64,000 bases of DNA from Rhizobium sp. 18065 (lineage in GTDB: Bacteria > Pseudomonadota > Alphaproteobacteria > Rhizobiales > Rhizobiaceae), in assembly GCF_902706095.1 (NCBI RefSeq), contig NZ_CACSJP010000004.1:124001-188000 (forward strand). The letters run 5' to 3'. The notes under the pieces are model-generated. The model searched no databases. It was given only the letters and a program-made list of their open reading frames with translations, and was not told the origin of the DNA. Position numbers and translations under genes: made by a program. Positions 33,897 through 43,694 of the stretch are shown here, piece after piece. The stretch's first letter is position 1. Every line of letters starts with the position of its first letter.

Positions 33897-33991
33897 CGTT
33901 CGGCTGACGCGGGACCGACGGGTTGATGTGCGGTCGGCCCTTGGAAAGTTGCGTGGGGCTCGATATCCTTGATGCCGGAGGAGGACCGAGT

Positions 33992-35830
33992 TTGACGACA
34001 TCGAAGGCCGCAGGAAAGGCCGCAAGACCATGGCAGCGCGTGGCGATGGCACGGCGCACGATTGGCGTTCTGGTCGTCCTGCTGGTGATTGCAGCTATCG
34101 GTGTCATGACTGCGGGTCAAAGGCTTCTTACCCGCAGCGTGATGGACGAGGCCTCCTTGCAGGCCGAAAGTGCGTTGCGACTGGCGGCGGCGGCACTCAG
34201 CGGTCATCTCAAGCGTTATGAGCCACTGCCGGCGCTGATCGCAGACGATCCAGACATGAAGGAACTGGCGCGCCGGCCCGATGATGCCGGCCTGCGCGCG
34301 CATGCCAATGCCTATCTGAAGGCGATCAACGCGCTGCTCAAGTCCTCCGACATCTACATCATGACCATGGACGGCGTAACCATCGCGGCCAGCAATTACG
34401 ATGGCCCGGCGAGCTTCGTCGGCGAGAATTTCAGCTATCGTCCCTATTTCCAGGAGGCCGCGGCCGGGCGGCAATCGCGCTTTTACGCGCTTGGCACGAC
34501 ATCGGCAAAACGCGGCTATTATTTCGCCTCACCCATCAATGTCGATGGCGACGTTCGCGGGGTTATCGTCTTCAAGGTCGATATCGACAGTATCGAGGCA
34601 TCCTGGCGTGGCGGCGAGTACAAGATCCTCGTCTCCGATCCGGAGGGCATCATCTTCATGACCGGCAGTCCGGGCTGGCTCTATTCGTCGGTGCTGCCGC
34701 TAACGACTGAGCGACTGGAGCGCACGACTGCATCGCGGCGCTATTCCGATGCCGTGCTCAAGGAACTGCCGATCAAGCGCAGTCAATTCGACAATCATGA
34801 ACTGATGACGGTTCCGACGAATGGCGTTTTCCGCGAATACCTGGTCAAGTCGGACTACATGATCGATGCCGGCTGGAACGTCAGCGTTCTCCTGGACACG
34901 GGCTCGATCCGTGCCCAGGCACGCACCATGCAGATCGCCATTCTTCTGTCTTTGTGCCTGATGTTTCTCCTGCTTGCGGTGGTGATCCAGCGCCGTGCGC
35001 GGCTGGAGGAGCGGATGCTGATGCAGGTCGAGGCACAGGCGGAGCTGGAGCGGCGTGTCGAGGAGCGCACCGCCGATCTGGCGCGGGTCAACTCTCAGCT
35101 TCGGCAGACCCAGGCCGACCTGATCCAGGCCGGGAAACTGGCGGGGCTTGGCCAGATGTCGGCAGCCCTTTCACACGAGTTCAACCAGCCGCTCGCCGCC
35201 GCCAAGACCTATGCGGATAGCGCCGCCATGCTGATCGATCGTCAGCGGGTGGGCGAGGCGCGCGAGAACCTGACGCGTATTTCCGGCCTGATCGACCGCA
35301 TGGCCTCGATCAGCCGGCATTTGCGCAACTTCGCCCGCAAGCCGAACGAGAAGCTTGCGGCGGTGGCGCTGGACGATGTGGTACAGGATACGCTGGAAAT
35401 CATATCCGCGCGCCTGTCCACGGCCGATGCTGAACTGGTCATCGATATCGCGCCTGGCCTGCCGCCGATCCATGGCGGTTCGGTGCGCCTGCAGCAGGTT
35501 CTGGTCAACCTCCTCTCAAATGCCTGCGATGCCGTGGAAGGGCTCGGCGATCGGACAATCCATCTCGAGGGGTGGCGCGAAGGGGACCGTGTCGTGATCG
35601 AGATCGGCGATCGGGGTCCGGGCGTGCCACCGGCAATCACCGAGCGCATCTTCGATCCGTTCTTCACCACGAAGGGTGTCGGCCGGGGGCTGGGGCTGGG
35701 CTTGTCGATCTCCTACAATATCATCAAGGACTTCGGCGGCAGCCTGACGGTTGGGCCACGTGACGGCGGTGGTGCCCTTTTCAGGATCGAGCTTGGCGTG
35801 GCCGAACCGGTCAGCGAGGCTGCGGAATGA
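33992..35830 (+). CDS. DctB-like sensor histidine kinase
   Basis: 612 aa membrane kinase. TM1 (about residues 22-44) and TM2 (about 308-330) flank a periplasmic double-PAS (dCache) domain of the DctB type; a coiled coil (EERMLMQVEAQAELERRVEER) links to the kinase core. His395 in ALSHEFNQPLAAAKTY is the phosphorylated residue; N, G1 (GDRGPGVP) and G2 (GRGLGLGLS) boxes are intact. TTG 33992 is chosen because GGAGGAGG lies seven bases upstream; ATG 33926 in frame is the alternative. It overlaps the response-regulator gene as ATGA. DctB proteins sense C4-dicarboxylates; next to TctCBA a di- or tricarboxylate signal is likely. Confidence 0.9.
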   Translation: MTTSKAAGKAARPWQRVAMARRTIGVLVVLLVIAAIGVMTAGQRLLTRSVMDEASLQAESALRLAAAALSGHLKRYEPLPALIADDPDMKELARRPDDAGLRAHANAYLKAINALLKSSDIYIMTMDGVTIAASNYDGPASFVGENFSYRPYFQEAAAGRQSRFYALGTTSAKRGYYFASPINVDGDVRGVIVFKVDIDSIEASWRGGEYKILVSDPEGIIFMTGSPGWLYSSVLPLTTERLERTTASRRYSDAVLKELPIKRSQFDNHELMTVPTNGVFREYLVKSDYMIDAGWNVSVLLDTGSIRAQARTMQIAILLSLCLMFLLLAVVIQRRARLEERMLMQVEAQAELERRVEERTADLARVNSQLRQTQADLIQAGKLAGLGQMSAALSHEFNQPLAAAKTYADSAAMLIDRQRVGEARENLTRISGLIDRMASISRHLRNFARKPNEKLAAVALDDVVQDTLEIISARLSTADAELVIDIAPGLPPIHGGSVRLQQVLVNLLSNACDAVEGLGDRTIHLEGWREGDRVVIEIGDRGPGVPPAITERIFDPFFTTKGVGRGLGLGLSISYNIIKDFGGSLTVGPRDGGGALFRIELGVAEPVSEAAE

Positions 35831-37200
35831 GCGAAGGTCTGGTGCTTCTGGTCGATGACGAGGAGGAGTTGCGGTTCTCCACCGCGCAGGCGCTTGAACT
35901 GCACGGATTGAAAGTGAAGGCCTTTGCCTCGGGAGAGGATATACTCGAGCGGGTCGGTTACGGTTTCGATGGTGTCGTGGTCACGGATATCCGCATGCCG
36001 GGGATCGATGGCATGACGCTGCTGCACCGGATCCGGGAACTCGACCATGAAATACCGGTGATCCTCGTCACCGGCCATGGCGATGTGCAACTGGCCGTCA
36101 AGGCCATGCGCGAGGGCGCTTATGACTTCATAGAGAAGCCGTTTGCCAGTCAGGGTCTGGCGGGTGTCGTGCGACATGCGCTGGATCGTCGGTCGCTGGT
36201 GCTGGAAAACCGGCGTCTCAGGGCCGTGGCCGGCAAGCGCGACGACATTGAGAGCCGGCTTCCGGGTCGGACACCGGTCATGGTCGACCTGCGCTATCGG
36301 CTACGGGCGATCGGAGCGACGGAGGCCGACACGCTGATCATCGGTGAAACCGGCGCGGGCAAGGAAGTGGTGGCGCGGAGCCTGCATGATATCAGTGCGC
36401 GTGCCAAGGGGCCGTTTCTGGCTATCAATTGCGCCTCTCTGCCGGAAACATTGATCGAGAGCGAGCTGTTCGGCCATGAGGCCGGTGCGTTTCCAGGTGC
36501 GCTCAGGGCGCGCTACGGCAAGTTCGAGCATGGCCGCGGCGGGACAATCCTGCTCGACGAAATCGGCTCCATGCCGATCGATCTGCAGGCGAAATTCCTG
36601 CGGGTGCTGCAGGAGCGGACGATCACGCGGCTCGGATCAAACGAGGTTGTTCCGCTCGACGTGCGCTTCCTGGCAACCAGCAAGGTCGACCTGGCCGAGG
36701 AGGTGGCTGCGGGACGGTTTCGTGCCGATCTCTTCTACCGCCTGAATGTGGTGACCATCCGCGTGCCGTCGCTTGTCCAGAGGCGCGCGGATGTTCCCCT
36801 GCTGTTTCTCCAATTGGTGCGGGAAGCCTGCGCCCGTTATGGCCGTGACGATATGCAGGTCGCACCGGAGATCATTTCCGAGATTGCCGAAAGAGACTGG
36901 CCGGGTAACGTGCGCGAACTGCGCAACGCAGCCGACCGCCTGGTTCTTGGGCTGGAAACAGGGCTCGATTCCGCCGCTGCCGATGCGCGCGCCGGCCTGA
37001 GGCTGATCGACAAGGTCGGCGCCTATGAGAAACAGGTCATTGCGGGCACCATCGCTGCGCATGGCGGTAGCCTGCGACCGGTCTATGAGCAGCTCGGGAT
37101 CTCGCGCAAGACCCTCTACGAGAAGATGCAGAAATACGGCCTCGACAAAAAGCTGGCGCTTGGCGAGCGTGATTCCGAGGCTTACGGCCCGGAAAATTGA
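35827..37200 (+). CDS. DctD/NtrC-like response regulator with GAFPGA instead of GAFTGA
   Basis: 457 aa protein with receiver domain (Asp54 in VVTDIRMPG), AAA+ domain (Walker A GETGAGKE 173-180, Walker B ILLDEI 241-246) and a C-terminal Fis-type helix-turn-helix ('GSLRPVYEQLGISRKTLYEKMQKYG'). Residues 220-225 read GAFPGA, with Pro replacing the Thr that contacts sigma-54 in the GAFTGA loop; the codon is CCA in a clean frame. Such a change can abolish sigma-54 activation, so this may be a sigma-54-independent regulator. It is coupled to the DctB-like kinase and lies 40 bases before tandem palindromes ahead of tctC. Confidence 0.9.
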   Translation: MSEGLVLLVDDEEELRFSTAQALELHGLKVKAFASGEDILERVGYGFDGVVVTDIRMPGIDGMTLLHRIRELDHEIPVILVTGHGDVQLAVKAMREGAYDFIEKPFASQGLAGVVRHALDRRSLVLENRRLRAVAGKRDDIESRLPGRTPVMVDLRYRLRAIGATEADTLIIGETGAGKEVVARSLHDISARAKGPFLAINCASLPETLIESELFGHEAGAFPGALRARYGKFEHGRGGTILLDEIGSMPIDLQAKFLRVLQERTITRLGSNEVVPLDVRFLATSKVDLAEEVAAGRFRADLFYRLNVVTIRVPSLVQRRADVPLLFLQLVREACARYGRDDMQVAPEIISEIAERDWPGNVRELRNAADRLVLGLETGLDSAAADARAGLRLIDKVGAYEKQVIAGTIAAHGGSLRPVYEQLGISRKTLYEKMQKYGLDKKLALGERDSEAYGPEN

Positions 37201-37239: not shown

Positions 37240-37287
37240 GGGTGGATTTCCACCCGTTGCTTCGGTCGCATGGGCGGGAAACCACCC
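37240..37287. promoter_or_regulatory. Tandem palindromes upstream of the TctCBA operon
   Basis: GGGTGG-ATTT-CCACCC (37240-37255) and GGGCGG-GAAA-CCACCC (37272-37287) share the form GGGYGG-N4-CCACCC. Their centres are 32 bp apart, about three helical turns, so bound dimers would lie on one DNA face. They sit 145-193 bases before the tctC start, a usual distance for an enhancer-type activator such as the DctD-like protein encoded just upstream. I found no convincing GG-N10-GC sigma-54 promoter between them and tctC. Confidence 0.65.
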
Positions 37288-37432
37288 ATGATGCGGCGCA
37301 GCACGCGCCATAAGTTTGTTCGACGGATCTTCCGAGCATTGCGCGATGGGTAAATGCGGCAAAAAACTCATCCATCCGAGACCGGCCTGGGAGGAGCCAT
37401 GCCGGCGGGGGACGTCATATCGGGAGGATTCG

Positions 37433-38413
37433 ATGACATTTCTGAAGTCGCTGTTCAGCGCAACCGCCATTGCCGCCACGCTTTTTTCCGCACAGGCATC
37501 CGCCCAGGGTTATCCTGAGCGTTCGATCACCATGGTCGTGCCCTTTGCCGCCGGCGGTCCGACGGATACCGTTGCCCGCCTCGTGGCGGAAGCCATGTCC
37601 AAGGATCTCGGCCAGCAGGTCCTGGTGGAAAATGTCGGTGGAGCCGGTGGCACGCTGGGTGCCGGTCGCGTCGCTTCATCCGAGCCGGACGGCTATACGA
37701 TGCTGCTGCATCACATCGGCATGGCAACCTCTGCCAGCCTGTACCGCAAGCTCGCCTATGATCCGCTCAATGCCTTCGACTATGTCGGCCTTGTCACCGA
37801 TGTGCCGATGACGATCGTCGCGCGCAAGGATTTCGAGCCAGCCGATCTCAAGAGCCTGGTCGAATATGTGAAGGCGAACAAGGACACAGTGACCGTCGCC
37901 AATGCCGGCATCGGGGCTGCCTCGCATCTTTGCGGCATGTTGCTGATGAGCCAGATCGAAACGCCGCTGGTCACTGTTCCCTACAAGGGCACCGGGCCTG
38001 CGATGACCGATCTGCTCGGTGGCCAGGTCGATATCATGTGCGACCAGACCACCAACACGACCAAACAGATCCAGGGCGGAACGATCAAGGCCTATGCCGT
38101 GACGTCGCCAGCGCGCCTCGACGTGCTGCCGGATGTGCCGACGGCTGCTGAAGGCGGACTGGCCGATTTCCAGGTCGGCATCTGGCACGGCGTCTACGTG
38201 CCGAAGGGCACGCCGGGCGAGGCAATCGACAAGCTCAATGCATCGCTGAAGAAGGCACTGGCCGACGAGAACGTGGTTGCCCGCTTTGCCGAACTCGGCA
38301 CGGCACCTTCGCCGGACGCCGATGTGACACCGGCTGCACTGAAGGCAAAGCTCGAAAGTGAAATTGCCCGCTGGAAGCCTGTCATCGAAGCTGCCGGCCA
38401 GTACGCCGACTGA
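37433..38413 (+). CDS. tctC: Tripartite tricarboxylate transporter binding protein
   Basis: 326 aa periplasmic receptor (Bug family). A signal peptide (residues 1-24, cleavage after ASA) precedes QGYPERSITMVVPFAAGGPTDTVARL, the family hallmark. ATG 37433 follows CGGGAGGATT. Bug proteins bind carboxylates such as citrate, tartrate, adipate or nicotinate through two water-bridged loops; the particular ligand cannot be read here. It leads a three-gene transporter operon with tctB and tctA. Confidence 0.92.
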   Translation: MTFLKSLFSATAIAATLFSAQASAQGYPERSITMVVPFAAGGPTDTVARLVAEAMSKDLGQQVLVENVGGAGGTLGAGRVASSEPDGYTMLLHHIGMATSASLYRKLAYDPLNAFDYVGLVTDVPMTIVARKDFEPADLKSLVEYVKANKDTVTVANAGIGAASHLCGMLLMSQIETPLVTVPYKGTGPAMTDLLGGQVDIMCDQTTNTTKQIQGGTIKAYAVTSPARLDVLPDVPTAAEGGLADFQVGIWHGVYVPKGTPGEAIDKLNASLKKALADENVVARFAELGTAPSPDADVTPAALKAKLESEIARWKPVIEAAGQYAD

Positions 38414-38522: not shown

Positions 38523-38984
38523 ATGAAATCTGTTCGTCTCGATCCAGCCAATGCGCTTTGCGGCCTGCTCTTCATCGGGCTCGGCCTGTTCTTCACCTAT
38601 CAATCCTTCCAGCTCGAACTCGGCACCGCTTTCCGCATGGGGCCGGGATATTTCCCGCTGGTGCTGGCAATCATCCTCGCATTGCTGGGGATCGTCATTC
38701 TCGTTCAGGCGACCCGCGTCGAGGGTGAACCGATCGGGCCGGTTGCCTGGCGCGGCATGATGTTCATCCTGCCTGCCCCGGTCGTCTTCGGGCTTCTGGT
38801 GCGTGGTGCGGGCTTCGTGCCGGCGCTGTTCGTCGCGGCCTTCATCGCGAGTTTCGCGTCCGAGCGGCTGCGCGTGCCGGCGGCGCTGCTGCTGGCGATC
38901 GGCATCACCTTCTTCTCCGTGCTCGTGTTCAGCTATGGCCTCGGCCTGCCGTTCGAGCGTTTCGGCCCCTGGCTCCGCTTCTGA
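38523..38984 (+). CDS. tctB: Tripartite tricarboxylate transporter small membrane subunit
   Basis: 153 aa protein with four hydrophobic segments, matching the TctB family (MGPGYFPLVLAIILALLGIVIL is the typical first part). ATG 38523 follows GGGGGACCCA. It pairs with TctA in the inner membrane. Nine bases separate it from tctA. Confidence 0.9.
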   Translation: MKSVRLDPANALCGLLFIGLGLFFTYQSFQLELGTAFRMGPGYFPLVLAIILALLGIVILVQATRVEGEPIGPVAWRGMMFILPAPVVFGLLVRGAGFVPALFVAAFIASFASERLRVPAALLLAIGITFFSVLVFSYGLGLPFERFGPWLRF

Positions 38985-38993
38985 GGTCCCGAC

Positions 38994-40499
38994 ATGGAAT
39001 TCATCGATAATCTTGCGCTTGGCTTTTCGACGGCCGGCTCGATCGAAAATCTCTTCTTCTGCCTGGTGGGTGTCATTCTCGGCACATTGATCGGCGTGCT
39101 TCCCGGCATCGGCGCGACGGCGACCATTGCCATGCTGCTGCCGATCACCTTCCAGCTTGAACCGGTCTCGTCGCTGATCATGCTGGCCGGCATCTACTAT
39201 GGCGCGCAGTATGGCGGCTCGACCACCGCGATCCTGATCAACATGCCGGGGGAATCATCATCCGCGGTGACTGCAATCGACGGTTACCAGATGGCCCGCA
39301 AGGGACGGGCGGGGGCGGCACTAGCAATTGCAGCTATAGGTTCCTTCTTCGCCGGAACAGTCTCCACCTTCCTGGTTGCGATCTTTGCCCCGCCGCTAAC
39401 CGCTATCGCACTGCAGTTCGGCTCTGCTGAATATTTCTCGCTGATGATCGTCGGTCTGGTGTCGTCCATTGCGCTGGCGCATGGTTCGATCATCAAGGCG
39501 CTGGCCATGGTGTCGCTCGGCCTGCTGCTCGGTCTCGTTGGCACCGACATCTATTCCGGCACGCCGCGTTTCACCATGGGGATTACGGAATATGCCGATG
39601 GCCTGAATTTCGTCGCCGTGGCCGTTGGTGTCTTCGGGGTCGCGGAAATCCTGCGCAACCTGGAAAGCGACCGGAACCGCACGGTTCTTATCTCCAAGGT
39701 CAGCGGATTGATGCCGACACGGGATGACTTCCGCCGGATGTTCTGGCCCGTTCTGCGTGGCACGGGCATTGGCTCCGCACTTGGCATCCTGCCGGGGGGC
39801 GGCGCGATCCTGGCGTCTTTTGCCTCCTATACCGTGGAAAAGCGGATGTCGAAGACGCCGGAGGAATTCGGCCACGGCGCCATCGAAGGCGTCGCCGGTC
39901 CGGAATCGGCCAATAATGCCGGCGCGCAGACTTCCTTCATTCCGCTGCTGACACTCGGCATTCCGGCCAATCCGGTCATGGCGCTGATGGTTGGCGCGAT
40001 GATCATCCAGGGCATCGTGCCCGGCCCCAATGTCGCTGTTGAACAGCCGGCGTTGTTCTGGGGTATCATTGCGTCGATGTGGATCGGCAATCTGATGCTG
40101 CTGGTGCTGAACCTGCCGCTGATCGGGCTCTGGGTGAAGCTGCTGACCATCCCTTACTACGTGCTGTTCCCGATCATCATGGCTTTCTGCTCGATCGGGG
40201 TCTACAGCGTCAACGCCAATATCTACGACCTCTATGCCGTGGCCTTCTTCGGCTTCATCGGTTACATGCTGGTCAAGTTGCGCTGTGAACCGGCGCCGCT
40301 GTTGCTCGGTTTTGTTCTCGGGCCGCTGCTGGAGGAAAACCTGCGCCGTGCGATGATCCTGTCGCGTGGCGATCCGTCAACCTTCGTGACCCGGCCGATC
40401 AGTGCCACCCTGCTTTTGATCGCGCTCGCCGTGCTGATCATCGTCTTCCTGCCCAGCGTGAAGAAGAAGCGCGAGGAGGTTTTCCAGGAGGAGGACTGA
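38994..40499 (+). CDS. tctA: Tripartite tricarboxylate transporter large membrane subunit
   Basis: 501 aa integral membrane protein of the TctA family with about 11-12 segments. Family landmarks include GTLIGVLPGIGATATIAMLLPITF near residue 27, YYGAQYGGSTTAILINMPGE, and GPESANNAGAQTSFIPLLTLGIP in the C-terminal half. It carries out sodium- or proton-coupled uptake of the carboxylate delivered by TctC. A strong terminator follows. Confidence 0.94.
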   Translation: MEFIDNLALGFSTAGSIENLFFCLVGVILGTLIGVLPGIGATATIAMLLPITFQLEPVSSLIMLAGIYYGAQYGGSTTAILINMPGESSSAVTAIDGYQMARKGRAGAALAIAAIGSFFAGTVSTFLVAIFAPPLTAIALQFGSAEYFSLMIVGLVSSIALAHGSIIKALAMVSLGLLLGLVGTDIYSGTPRFTMGITEYADGLNFVAVAVGVFGVAEILRNLESDRNRTVLISKVSGLMPTRDDFRRMFWPVLRGTGIGSALGILPGGGAILASFASYTVEKRMSKTPEEFGHGAIEGVAGPESANNAGAQTSFIPLLTLGIPANPVMALMVGAMIIQGIVPGPNVAVEQPALFWGIIASMWIGNLMLLVLNLPLIGLWVKLLTIPYYVLFPIIMAFCSIGVYSVNANIYDLYAVAFFGFIGYMLVKLRCEPAPLLLGFVLGPLLEENLRRAMILSRGDPSTFVTRPISATLLLIALAVLIIVFLPSVKKKREEVFQEED

Positions 40500-40521: not shown

Positions 40522-40557
40522 CAAGGCCCGGCCCCATGTGCCGGGCCTTGTTTCTTT
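40522..40557 (+). terminator. Rho-independent terminator after tctA
   Basis: A perfect 10-bp stem CAAGGCCCGG/CCGGGCCTTG (40522-40531, 40541-40550) is followed by TTTCTTT. It separates tctA from the convergent binding-protein gene. Confidence 0.88.
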
Positions 40558-41639
40558 CATGGGTCCGGCGCTGTGAACAGGGCCGTCCAGTTGCGGATGA
40601 AGCGTTCACGCGTGGCGCGGTCCTGGGCTGCCAGCAATGCCGGTCCGATACGGATTGGACGGCCAATACCGGATTCGATCAGTGAGGCCGGGCCTTCGAC
40701 ACCTTCGGGCAATGGGTCATCTTCGGAGAGGAAGAAGGCCTCTTCGCGCGCAACCCTCTTGCCACGGGATGAGAGAAGATAATCGATAAAGCGGCGGGCG
40801 AGATCGGTTTGCTGCGATTTTACGGGGATCAGGGCTGCGCGCGGCAGGATCAGCGCATAGTCGCGCGGTATGACGACGCGCAGGTTCGGGTTCTTCAAGA
40901 AGGCCGCATAGGCGTAGGAGCCGAGAATATTGTAGGCGATGCGCAAGCGCCCGCTGGCGATCTGATCCAGCACCTCGTTGTTGCAACACCCTGTTACGAC
41001 CTCGGCGCGACTGAAGCTTTCCAGCAATCGGCCATAGATTGTTGGCGCCTGAAGCGCGTCATGAAAGGCAAGCAGGTATCCCACGCCGGAGAGCTGGATG
41101 TTGTAGGTTCCGATCCGGTTGCGATAGTCCTCCGGCTTGCGGCGCAGGAGATCGGCAATGTCCGCATGGCTGCGCGGCACATCCGCTTGCGGAACACGCG
41201 ATGCATCATAGACGATGACGGCGGGCTCGAAGACAAAGCCGAAGACTTCGTTTCGCCAATTCGCCCAGCTTGCGAGCGCATCGGTCTCTGCGGAACTATG
41301 AGGAATGGCACAGCCGTCATTGGCAAGTTTGACGAGTTGGTCTGCCGAGGATGAGATCAGCAGATCACCGTAATTCTGCCCGGTGCTGCAAGCCCGCTCG
41401 GCCTCACGAAAAAGATCGTTGGAAACGTAGTCGTTGAACTCGACGGTGACGTCCGGTGCTAGCTGCTGAAAATCCTCTATCAGCGGTTTGATGGCATCGG
41501 CGTCGGTCACGCCGTTGATGACCAGCCGGGATCTTTCAGCGCCGGGCGACTGGAAGACGGTCTTCTCACCCTCGATCGCTGTGGCATGATTGGGCATACA
41601 AAGGATGAGACTGGCGCATAAAAGGGTTTTCTTGAGCAT
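40557..41639 (-). CDS. Lone periplasmic binding protein in a two-component operon (PgtC/SBP_bac_11-like)
   Basis: 360 aa protein with signal peptide (cleavage after ATA, about residue 21) and a periplasmic binding-protein fold of the iron/phosphoglycerate-type group (LVINGVTDADAIKPLIEDFQQLAPDVTVEFNDY; 'AYNILGSYA'). No ABC permease or ATPase is adjacent. Instead it overlaps the histidine-kinase gene by one base (TGATG). In the Salmonella Pgt system a periplasmic PgtC protein works with a kinase, so a signal-input role for this protein is more likely than transport. Residues 218-219 are a CysCys pair (VVTGCCNNEV). Confidence 0.83.
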   Translation of the reverse strand: MLKKTLLCASLILCMPNHATAIEGEKTVFQSPGAERSRLVINGVTDADAIKPLIEDFQQLAPDVTVEFNDYVSNDLFREAERACSTGQNYGDLLISSSADQLVKLANDGCAIPHSSAETDALASWANWRNEVFGFVFEPAVIVYDASRVPQADVPRSHADIADLLRRKPEDYRNRIGTYNIQLSGVGYLLAFHDALQAPTIYGRLLESFSRAEVVTGCCNNEVLDQIASGRLRIAYNILGSYAYAAFLKNPNLRVVIPRDYALILPRAALIPVKSQQTDLARRFIDYLLSSRGKRVAREEAFFLSEDDPLPEGVEGPASLIESGIGRPIRIGPALLAAQDRATRERFIRNWTALFTAPDP

Positions 41640-43030
41640 CAGCTTATGGTCTCTGCCTGGAGCGGCAATTCAAGGACAACGGTAAAGCCTTTTTCCGGCG
41701 TCTTTTCGCGGAAGGAGAGGCCGCCCCTCAAGGCAATTGCGACCTCCGAGGCGATAGCAAATCCAAGGCCGGAGCTGCCACTGCCTGATTTCGACGACAC
41801 GAAGCGTTTGGTGACCTGACCCCAGTCGGCCGGGGGGATGCCGGGTCCGTCATCTTCAACTTCGACCAGAGCAAAATTGCCGCGTCTGAGGACACGCACA
41901 TCCAGCTTGAACCGGGTGCCGTGGCGCAGGGAGTTGTCGATGATGTTGACGATGGCCTCGCGCAGGCTGAGGCCATCACCGAGCACGACCAAGGTTTCGT
42001 CCGGCCCTTCGAACGATACGACCGTATCCGGATCGATGGTGATGGGCACAGCGGCACGGAACGCTTTTCGCGCAATTTCGGTGACGTCGAGCGGACCCAG
42101 TTGCGCGCTGTCGAAGCGGTGAATGACCATGGCATGGTTAAGCAACTGTCCGGTGAAATGGGCGAGTTCGCCGGCGCGGTCCTTGACCCGTTCCAGATGG
42201 CGCCGGTCATTGTCGGAGAGCGCATCTTCGTGGATCAGGCTGACCTGGGCTGACAGTGCCGTCAGTGGGGTCCTGATCTGGTGGGCGCTGTCGGCAATGA
42301 AGCGCTGCAGCAGGCGGACGCGTTCATCGAGCCGTCGCATGAAGTGATTGATGGAATCGACGAAGGGAGAGAGTTCGCCCGGCACGGCGACGGATAGCGG
42401 TGTCAGGTCCTGCGGATCACGGCGCAGCAGCATATCGCCGAGCTGATTGACGGGGCGCAGCGAATAGCGGATGGCAAGCGCCGTACCGGCGAGCGCCAGC
42501 GCACTCATGATCAGGACAATGACGAGCGCGCGGGTGGTAAGTTCAGTGACGAACTCCTTTCGAGCCTCGGTCGTTTGCCCGACGAGCACATAGGCCCAGC
42601 CACCGGCTGCTGCTTCGCTGATGGCGCGGCCGACAATGCCGATGCGCAATGGTACGTTGCGGTAGTCCTCGGAAAAGAAGACGGGACCAGAACGGGCCGG
42701 GGTGAGATCGGCCGACGGCGCCAGATCGTCATAGCCGGTCAGCGTCGATCCATCCGGCGAGACGACGCGGTAGAATATCCGGTCGCGCGGGGCCTGGCCG
42801 AGGAGTTCAAAGGCGGCCGGCGGCAGGTTTATGCCGATCCGCCCGTCCTCTACGGACAGGCCGTCGAGAATCTGGATCGCTGCTCCTTGTAGCAACCGGT
42901 CATAGGCTTCGTCGGCCGCAGCCTTGGCATAAAACCATGCAGCCGTGATCAGGACGGCGGCGCCAAAGAAAAGAACCAGGGCGACGCGGACGACCAGCCG
43001 GTAAAAGAGCGAGCGTCTAGTCTTCGTCAT
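41639..43030 (-). CDS. TctE/QseC-like sensor histidine kinase
   Basis: 463 aa membrane kinase: TM1 about residues 13-35, periplasmic region of ~125 residues (2CSK-N type), TM2 about 166-190, HAMP, phospho-accepting His250 in IADSAHQIRTPLTAL, then an ATPase domain with NIIDNSLRHG, DDGPGIP and GSSGLGFAIA. MTKTRRS at 43030 is taken as start; it overlaps the response-regulator gene by 14 bases. Partner of the OmpR-type regulator upstream. It faces the TctCBA operon, which TctDE systems normally control. Confidence 0.9.
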   Translation of the reverse strand: MTKTRRSLFYRLVVRVALVLFFGAAVLITAAWFYAKAAADEAYDRLLQGAAIQILDGLSVEDGRIGINLPPAAFELLGQAPRDRIFYRVVSPDGSTLTGYDDLAPSADLTPARSGPVFFSEDYRNVPLRIGIVGRAISEAAAGGWAYVLVGQTTEARKEFVTELTTRALVIVLIMSALALAGTALAIRYSLRPVNQLGDMLLRRDPQDLTPLSVAVPGELSPFVDSINHFMRRLDERVRLLQRFIADSAHQIRTPLTALSAQVSLIHEDALSDNDRRHLERVKDRAGELAHFTGQLLNHAMVIHRFDSAQLGPLDVTEIARKAFRAAVPITIDPDTVVSFEGPDETLVVLGDGLSLREAIVNIIDNSLRHGTRFKLDVRVLRRGNFALVEVEDDGPGIPPADWGQVTKRFVSSKSGSGSSGLGFAIASEVAIALRGGLSFREKTPEKGFTVVLELPLQAETIS

Positions 43031-43694
43031 CAGACACCAGTTGATAACCCAGGCCACGCACGGTCACGATTCTCGCCCTTGCGCCTTCCAGCTTCTTGCG
43101 CAGCCGGCCGACATAAAGTTCGATCGCGTTTGGCCCGGCGGGTTCGTCGAAGCCGAAAATCTGATCGAGCAACTGGTCCTTGCTGAACACGCGGCCGGGA
43201 CGCGAGGCGAGGATTTCAAGCAGCGTCATCTCGCGGCGCTTAAGCTGGACCTCGCGCTTGCCGACATGAACCGACCGATTGGTGCGATCGAGCATGACGT
43301 CGCCGCAGGCAATCACATTGGTCGCCTCGCCGCCGGAGCTTCTGCGCAACAAGACACGCGCTCTGGCCTCGAGTTCGCGAAAGTCGAAAGGTTTGACCAG
43401 ATAGTCGTCCGCCCCGAGATCAAGGGCACTGACGCGGTCATCGATTTCCGAGCGGGCCGTCAGGACCATCACGGGCACGGCATTGCGGTTCTGACGCAGC
43501 CGCTTGAGGATTTCGAAACCGTCCAGGCCGGGCAGCATCACGTCAAGGATGACAAGATCGTAGTCGGTGAAATCGAGGATCTCCGAGGCGGCACGGCCAT
43601 CCGTTTGCCAATCGACCGTATGACCGGTCGTCTCGAACCGGCGACTGATCGCCTCTCCCACGTCGTGTGTGTCTTCCACCAGCAATATTCGCAT
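43017..43694 (-). CDS. OmpR-family response regulator (TctD-like)
   Basis: 225 aa regulator: receiver domain with Asp51 in LVILDVMLPGLDG and Lys in VKPFDF; winged helix at about 128-222 (REMTLLEILASRPGRVFSKDQLLDQIFG, AIELYVGRLRKKLEGA). It is first of three overlapping genes with the kinase and the lone binding protein. TctD-type regulators activate tricarboxylate uptake, so TctCBA is the likely target. Confidence 0.93.
   Translation of the reverse strand: MRILLVEDTHDVGEAISRRFETTGHTVDWQTDGRAASEILDFTDYDLVILDVMLPGLDGFEILKRLRQNRNAVPVMVLTARSEIDDRVSALDLGADDYLVKPFDFRELEARARVLLRRSSGGEATNVIACGDVMLDRTNRSVHVGKREVQLKRREMTLLEILASRPGRVFSKDQLLDQIFGFDEPAGPNAIELYVGRLRKKLEGARARIVTVRGLGYQLVSDDED

Follow-up and report, generated by a model that had tools for sequence, protein, structure and literature searches.

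Carboxylate uptake in Rhizobium/Sinorhizobium meliloti is controlled by a kinase, DctB, and an AAA+ Fis-type response regulator, DctD, and the inverted repeats of the dctA UAS, 18 bp each and in tandem, have a GGAAATCC-like core. The TctD protein of Salmonella is an OmpR-type regulator, and to our knowledge sigma54-independent bEBPs seem to be few. The published DctD site of R. meliloti reads TGTGCGgaaatCCGCACA (a passage of PMC11077940). A further DctD-like two-component regulator is MifR of Pseudomonas aeruginosa, which serves alpha-ketoglutarate uptake; passages of PMC4482717 state that alpha-ketoglutarate use requires RpoN in this system. GAFTGA is missing from the NtrC proteins of Rhodobacter capsulatus and Caulobacter, which work at sigma70 promoters according to passages of PMC10274813 and PMC12421884, and Salmonella TctD is described in a passage of PMC5812351 as the dedicated regulator of tctCBA. 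Here we describe an operator of the DctD type that has probably been rewired to a sigma70-type promoter, which is the best explanation overall of the locus. No description of such a system was found in the open-access literature searched (listings and some passages), which does not prove its absence.

The operator is a pair of sites located between a DctB/DctD-like two-component system and tctC-tctB-tctA, in a window of 64 kb (the whole stretch of DNA analysed, from Rhizobium sp. 18065). The features of the region are the following:

33923–35830, forward strand: gene for a DctB-like sensor kinase (Pfam dCache_1, HisKA and HATPase_c), true start uncertain
35827–37200, forward strand: gene for a DctD-like response regulator (receiver, AAA+, GAFPGA, Fis-type HTH), the proposed binder of both sites
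37240–37255, no strand: site 1, the perfect palindrome GGGTGGATTTCCACCC, proposed as the stronger site for the DctD-like regulator
37272–37287, forward strand: site 2, GGGCGGGAAACCACCC, the right half of which, CCACCCAT, is the part conserved across species
37339–37344, forward strand: proposed -35, TTGCGC, its first T lying 57 bp downstream of the C that opens the site 2 CCACCC; the start site is a prediction
37363–37368, forward strand: proposed -10, AAAACT (spacing 18), weak; alternative AAAAAC at spacing 17
37382–37406, forward strand: hairpin in the leader, CCGGC...GCCGGC, its loop containing GAGGAG, close to the expected mRNA 5' end
37433–38413, forward strand: tctC, solute-binding protein of a tripartite tricarboxylate transporter (TTT), proposed first gene of the target operon
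38523–38984, forward strand: tctB
38994–40499, forward strand: tctA

Beyond tctA, positions 40557–43694 of the reverse strand carry genes for a solute-binding protein, a TctE-like kinase and a TctD-like regulator. They probably form a second system for carboxylate sensing, convergent with tctCBA. TctE/TctD genes of this kind were not seen beside tctCBA in 21 related loci, which extend at most about 2.6 kb past tctA.

Both GGGYGG-N4-CCACCC palindromes that the initial annotation had placed before tctC, at 37240–37287, are present there, with the 6+6 bp arms and one variant base it described: the arms of site 1 pair at 6/6 positions, and site 2 contains a single asymmetric arm base (GGGCGG/CCACCC). 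The two sites lie 32 bp apart, centre to centre, which corresponds to 3.05 turns at 10.5 bp per turn, so that the spacing and helical phasing also hold. In the 64 kb, GGGYGGNNNNCCACCC is found without mismatch only at sites 1 and 2 (three strand-matches at two places), and no exact match occurs in 100 dinucleotide shuffles of the window. With up to two mismatches, 11 matches are found in the window where 17 are expected, which is no enrichment, so the exact pair alone is special. The genome scan that had been suggested as a check returned, besides the pair in the window, one further exact match at C1:22160 with no partner seen beside it; since the reversed control pattern scores 1+1 matches in the whole genome, this lone match is at chance level.

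The arrangement resembles that of R. meliloti in several respects. It comprises a kinase and an AAA+ Fis-type response regulator, and the sites are inverted repeats of the 18-bp TGTG..G-N4-C..CACA type, in the form TGGGTGG-N4-CCACMC, which grades into TGTG-type sites across relatives. They are in tandem about three helical turns apart, as in dctA-type UASs, where pairs 32–33 bp apart were measured at the dctA of this genome and at two other T-loop loci. The differences from the R. meliloti system are the GAFPGA loop instead of GAFTGA, the half-sites TGGGTGG instead of TGTGCGG, the lack of a -24/-12 match, the near-constant distance to a TTG -35, and the target, here a TTT operon and in some relatives a TAXI- or TRAP-like system. 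Two points go beyond the initial annotation: the threonine that contacts sigma54 is missing from the DctD-like protein, and the promoter has a sigma70-like appearance.

The conservation of the pair was followed in the best 80 named loci with regulator relatives among the matches listed, in 30 same-genus genomes with close orthologues of the regulator (the genome of the window included) and in 30 Paracoccus loci; loci were chosen by regulator similarity, and the counts are of non-independent samples. The pair occurs before a transporter gene beside the same DctD-like regulator in Rhizobiales and Rhodobacterales. In a search that left the distance free, both sites were found in 70 of the 78 entries with a P or A loop, and the spacing was 32 bp in 56 of these, 33 in 10, 31 in one and unrelated in three, so that 67/70 measurable entries fall at 31–33 bp. 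The eight entries not counted for spacing are L008, L009, L011, L013, L014, L015, L016 and L131, among which site 2 was not called in five (5/78; L008, L009, L013, L015 and L131). The pair of L008 lies elsewhere, before tctC, in L131 the regulator gene ends within the first site, the L015 sequence is too short, and no pair was found in the L009 locus. Sites are degenerate in L011, L013, L014 and L016, and poor or partial in L013, L014, L018 and L024. The loop pattern overlooked L124 and L140, which proved to be GAFPGA on later reading and stand outside the site counts; L127 and L046 are one locus, and L084 is the window itself.

Regarding the sequence of the sites, site 1 is a palindrome in the relatives, its arms reading GGGTGG or GTGTGG. 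At site 2 there is often just a half-site of the form GTTACG/GTTCCC-N4-CYACCCAT, the left half starting with GT in 50/73 entries and with GG in 23/73, and the right half, CYACCCAT, being nearly constant. The comparison supports the initial proposal of in-phase tandem sites before tctC for a dimeric activator, but a full palindrome at site 2 is not the rule. The sites track the transporter gene rather than the regulator gene. Extra DNA of about 1.1 kb separates the regulator from tctC in Rhizobium vallis (L008), where the pair is before tctC; L010 contains two tctC genes with a pair before each. In Rhodobacterales, a complete or partial pair stands before tctC or before a TAXI-type binding protein, and L016 has a partial one before a TRAP-type binding protein (TAXI and TRAP named by eye). 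A scan of 63 genomes of the genus found TGGGTGGN4CCACMC at the regulator locus in 29/30 genomes with the regulator, the thirtieth (G040) having one motif base changed, and anywhere in 8/33 of the others (the regulator having been searched for in all of the 63 but G241–G243), while its reversed control gave two matches across all 63 genomes. Three loci were checked from the eight motif-positive genomes without the regulator (L153, L154 and L164), and the motif is within an open frame in all three.

The sigma54-contact loop of the DctD-like protein of the window reads GAFPGA instead of GAFTGA, the threonine being absent. GAFPGA is found in 74 of the 78 entries, this protein included, and GAFAGA in the other four; all 30 fetched Paracoccus loci have GAFPGA. 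The Pfam domains of the regulator are Response_reg, Sigma54_activat and HTH_8, and the AAA+ domain, which gives the Sigma54_activat match, contains both Walker motifs. Across the entries Walker A is kept in 77/78, and the D[ED] of Walker B was recognised by pattern in 74 and by reading in the other four. The AAA+ motifs being kept, ATP binding may still drive oligomerisation. A midpoint-rooted tree of the regulators, made from 79 entries (part of the set) with the loop columns included, places all 36 P- or A-loop proteins and one S-loop entry (L023) in one clade with support 99/98; the second S-loop entry, L036, is placed elsewhere. The threonine is kept in a neighbouring group of five entries, joined at 93/91, three of which (L020, L027 and L041) have -24/-12 promoters scoring 12/13. 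A change of T to P in the loop of B. japonicum NifA yields an inactive protein and a GAFPGA protein of Desulfovibrio is termed “unclear” in passages of PMC4641369, so that P-loop proteins are not proven inactive in general by that source.

These data make it fairly likely that a P/A-loop DctD clade of Rhizobiales and Rhodobacterales left sigma54 once, via a single-residue change (T to P or A), kept its ATPase and operators, and became a fixed-distance sigma70 activator for TTT, TAXI and TRAP uptake that persists without rpoN. The R. capsulatus and Caulobacter NtrC proteins offer a parallel, as bEBP-type response regulators without a working sigma54 loop, which the sequence also predicts here. 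Their loop is deleted, whereas here one residue is substituted (P or A), and the operators and targets are others, the protein belonging to the DctD subfamily. With respect to that precedent, the new elements are the other subfamily, the substitution in place of a deletion, and a visible path from sigma54-type neighbours. A single-residue loop change thus marks the clade, the tree neighbours keep the threonine, and some have clear -24/-12 promoters; because the two groups differ in this way, swapping a single residue and a single promoter would test the sigma54-to-sigma70 switch. A further consequence is the warning that the automatic label “sigma54-dependent” for Sigma54_activat proteins is unsafe.

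With rpoN present in this genome, the pair could alternatively be an ordinary DctD-type UAS, with a proline loop that still works with sigma54 at the promoter CTGGGAGGAGCCATGCC (37387–37403). The position of the sites relative to this promoter would be normal for a UAS, and the sequence, the best -24/-12 match downstream of the regulator in the window, has the GG-N10-GC spacing and 9/13 consensus positions. However, it lies within the leader hairpin and is kept only in the close relatives L085–L087, being weaker in some others and not generally conserved; as a sigma54 promoter it was rejected. Scores of at least 11/13 were reached in 0/50 regions downstream of P/A-loop regulators versus 14/34 for GAFTGA, and in an enlarged set one of 77 entries reaches 11/13, inside the tctC coding sequence. 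The distribution of rpoN also speaks against this alternative, the regulator and the pair being found where no rpoN was detected. Although 19/23 genomes checked contain rpoN, the two sigma54 domains were not found in those of L012, L014, L019 and L046 (4/23; drafts or of unstated completeness, L019 being a MAG). In Paracoccus the regulator is present in 57/121 genomes (orthologues counted by E-value, 1.2e-158 or better, with the loop read in the 30 fetched), and among these 57 a sigma54 domain scores over the cut-off in 14, a weak partial match was obtained in one, and none in 42. The picture is complicated by rpoN being even rarer in Paracoccus genomes without the regulator (3/64 over the cut-off versus 14/57 with it), the regulator being commoner in rpoN-bearing genomes perhaps through genome size. 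The genomes of 18 of the 30 fetched Paracoccus loci have no sigma54 match at all; the pair was counted in 14 of the 18, with a TTG at 54–57 bp in 13 of those 14, and the other four comprise L127, which duplicates the L046 locus and does have the pair, L131, whose first site is interrupted by the end of the gene, and L124 and L140, which stand outside the count. Taken with the inactivation of NifA by T to P (in a passage of PMC4641369), this makes a working sigma54 loop unlikely. As a side observation, Sigma54_DBD exceeds the cut-off in only 17/121 Paracoccus genomes, at 87–191 bits compared with 152–240 in the 23 genomes checked.

The promoter pattern that accompanies the pair resembles the sigma70 type. 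A TTG, the proposed -35, is found 54–57 bp after site 2 in 72/73 entries (50/51 dereplicated), the miss being L136. In the dereplicated set it occupies a single window of four positions in 28/28 rhizobial and 22/23 Paracoccus promoters, with maxima of 8 and 7 in 500 shuffles; L012, L014, L019 and L024, outside the dereplicated rhizobial set, were later checked with all entries, and the distance agrees in L008, L131 and both L010 promoters. In the aligned leaders the TTG is followed after 16–18 bp by a weak hexamer, in which the second position is often A or the sixth T, the -10 being weakly conserved. A position-by-position logo anchored on site 2 is blurred because the distances vary by 1–3 bp. 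Transcription is expected to start near 37375, which would centre the sites near -127 and -95. The near-constant distance between sites and TTG contrasts with the spread at sigma54 promoters, and our guess is that it reflects direct contact with the polymerase. Related sites in T-loop relatives lie 46 to 135 bp before -24/-12 elements (without a shuffle control), and one further match lies 188 bp before such an element in L062, whose loop is unread.

Rewiring of the operator to this promoter is supported at the sequence level by the presence and conservation of the pair, the changed loop, the lack of a -24/-12 element, the constant TTG and the genomes without detectable rpoN; from these we infer binding, relative site strength, phosphorylation control, activation as opposed to repression, sigma70 use, the start site and the ligand. 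In the mechanism that we propose, the DctB-like kinase would sense a carboxylate and trigger the DctD-like response regulator encoded directly upstream of the pair, which would be its operator and would accommodate two dimers separated by three turns on one DNA face. Binding would be strong at site 1 and weaker and cooperative at site 2, as it is at dctA. Having lost the sigma54-contact threonine, the regulator would not open a -24/-12 promoter; acting from about -95 and -127, it most likely activates the sigma70-type promoter, whose TTG -35 keeps a nearly constant distance, and it may do so through direct contact with RNA polymerase. Repression from the same sites, or action both ways, would have a parallel in Caulobacter NtrC, which without GAFTGA activates and represses at sigma70 promoters (passages of PMC12421884), but we consider it improbable, the sites ending about 50 bp upstream of the proposed -35 with no overlap of the promoter.

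The protein that binds the pair is most likely the adjacent DctD-like regulator, and not TctD, in view of site similarity, co-occurrence, the tracking of the sites and the conserved neighbourhood; binding by the cognate regulator is suggested in particular by co-occurrence and tracking. The window motif TGGGTGGATTTCCACCCG resembles the R. meliloti DctD site. The dctA gene of this genome (named by eye) adjoins a dctB-dctD pair whose DctD reads GAFTGA, and has sites TGTGCGTCAATCCGCACG and TGTGCGGGTATCCGCACG, 33 bp apart, before a -24/-12 element scoring 11/13. This dctA-dctBD locus (L144, G000:C5:280500-290500), with its two TGTGCG...CGCACG sites, could be a useful internal control. T-loop pairs with spacings of 32 and 33 bp are found in one Aeromonas and one Nitrincola locus (without a shuffle control). 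The initial annotation had left the choice between the DctD-like and the TctD-like regulator to footprinting. The downstream-encoded, OmpR-family TctD-like protein would have in its favour that TctD controls tctCBA in Salmonella (a passage of PMC5812351) and that tctE- and tctD-like genes lie about 1.1–3.2 kb beyond tctA in the window, where, unlike in Salmonella, a DctD-type regulator is encoded upstream of tctC and the TctDE-like pair lies separately. Against it, the motif fits DctD sites, and 21 related loci of 7–13 kb that keep the DctB/DctD-like pair, with a reach of at most about 2.6 kb past tctA, contain no TctD/TctE-like neighbours, their only receiver-domain matches being at the regulator itself, plus one 25% match at the DctB-like kinase. 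TctD was rejected on this ground and is a very doubtful binder. As for chance GC-rich palindromes, the local G+C richness is all that would suggest them, and conservation of the pair with its spacing, together with the lack of exact matches in the shuffles, refutes them almost entirely.

The leaders that follow the promoter contain a second recurrent element. A GGAG-type run is present in 64/73 leaders, with stems of at least 7 pairs in 42/64 of these versus 22% of shuffles, and in 38 dereplicated leaders the figure is 66% for own arms versus 35% for crossed arms. The hairpin might be an RNA-level control element. For a known RNA family, the only match to the region was a microRNA at 24.1 bits against a gathering score of 95. 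Similar GGAGGA-loop leaders, with a second Shine-Dalgarno-like sequence, were seen at both targets (the second is described below), namely among L001–L143 and in L148, L162, L168, L169, L171, L176, L177 and L181–L186.

The genus scan also revealed pairs before a distant tctC paralogue, found in 14 genomes (E 1.2e-22 or better), this one included; the regulator is present in 14/14. The paralogue is on another contig in this genome, and roughly 285 kb from the regulator where one contig holds both. The 13/13 measured promoters of this second target combine a pair spaced by 32 or 33 bp with a TTG at exactly 55 bp downstream of site 2 and a leader hairpin that has a GGAGG loop; L170, the fourteenth, was inspected by eye. 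Since the first target had already set the TTG distance, its recurrence at the second is a real prediction, although the second promoter may be a duplicate, shared by descent and so incompletely independent. The motif offers a ready means to find further TTT uptake systems under such control. A regulon scan of this genome with the pair pattern gave three matches, the window locus included, versus one match for the reversed control; the other two are L178, within long open frames, and L180, outside any frame of at least 200 residues. This pattern would miss the second target, where a base of site 1 is changed. In this genome the second tctC-type gene with the same operator pair is at G000:C5:352596 (L181), with sites GGGTGAATTTTCACCC and GGGCAGAAATCCACCC, and the frame ending upstream of it resembles, by eye, an ABC-transporter ATPase.
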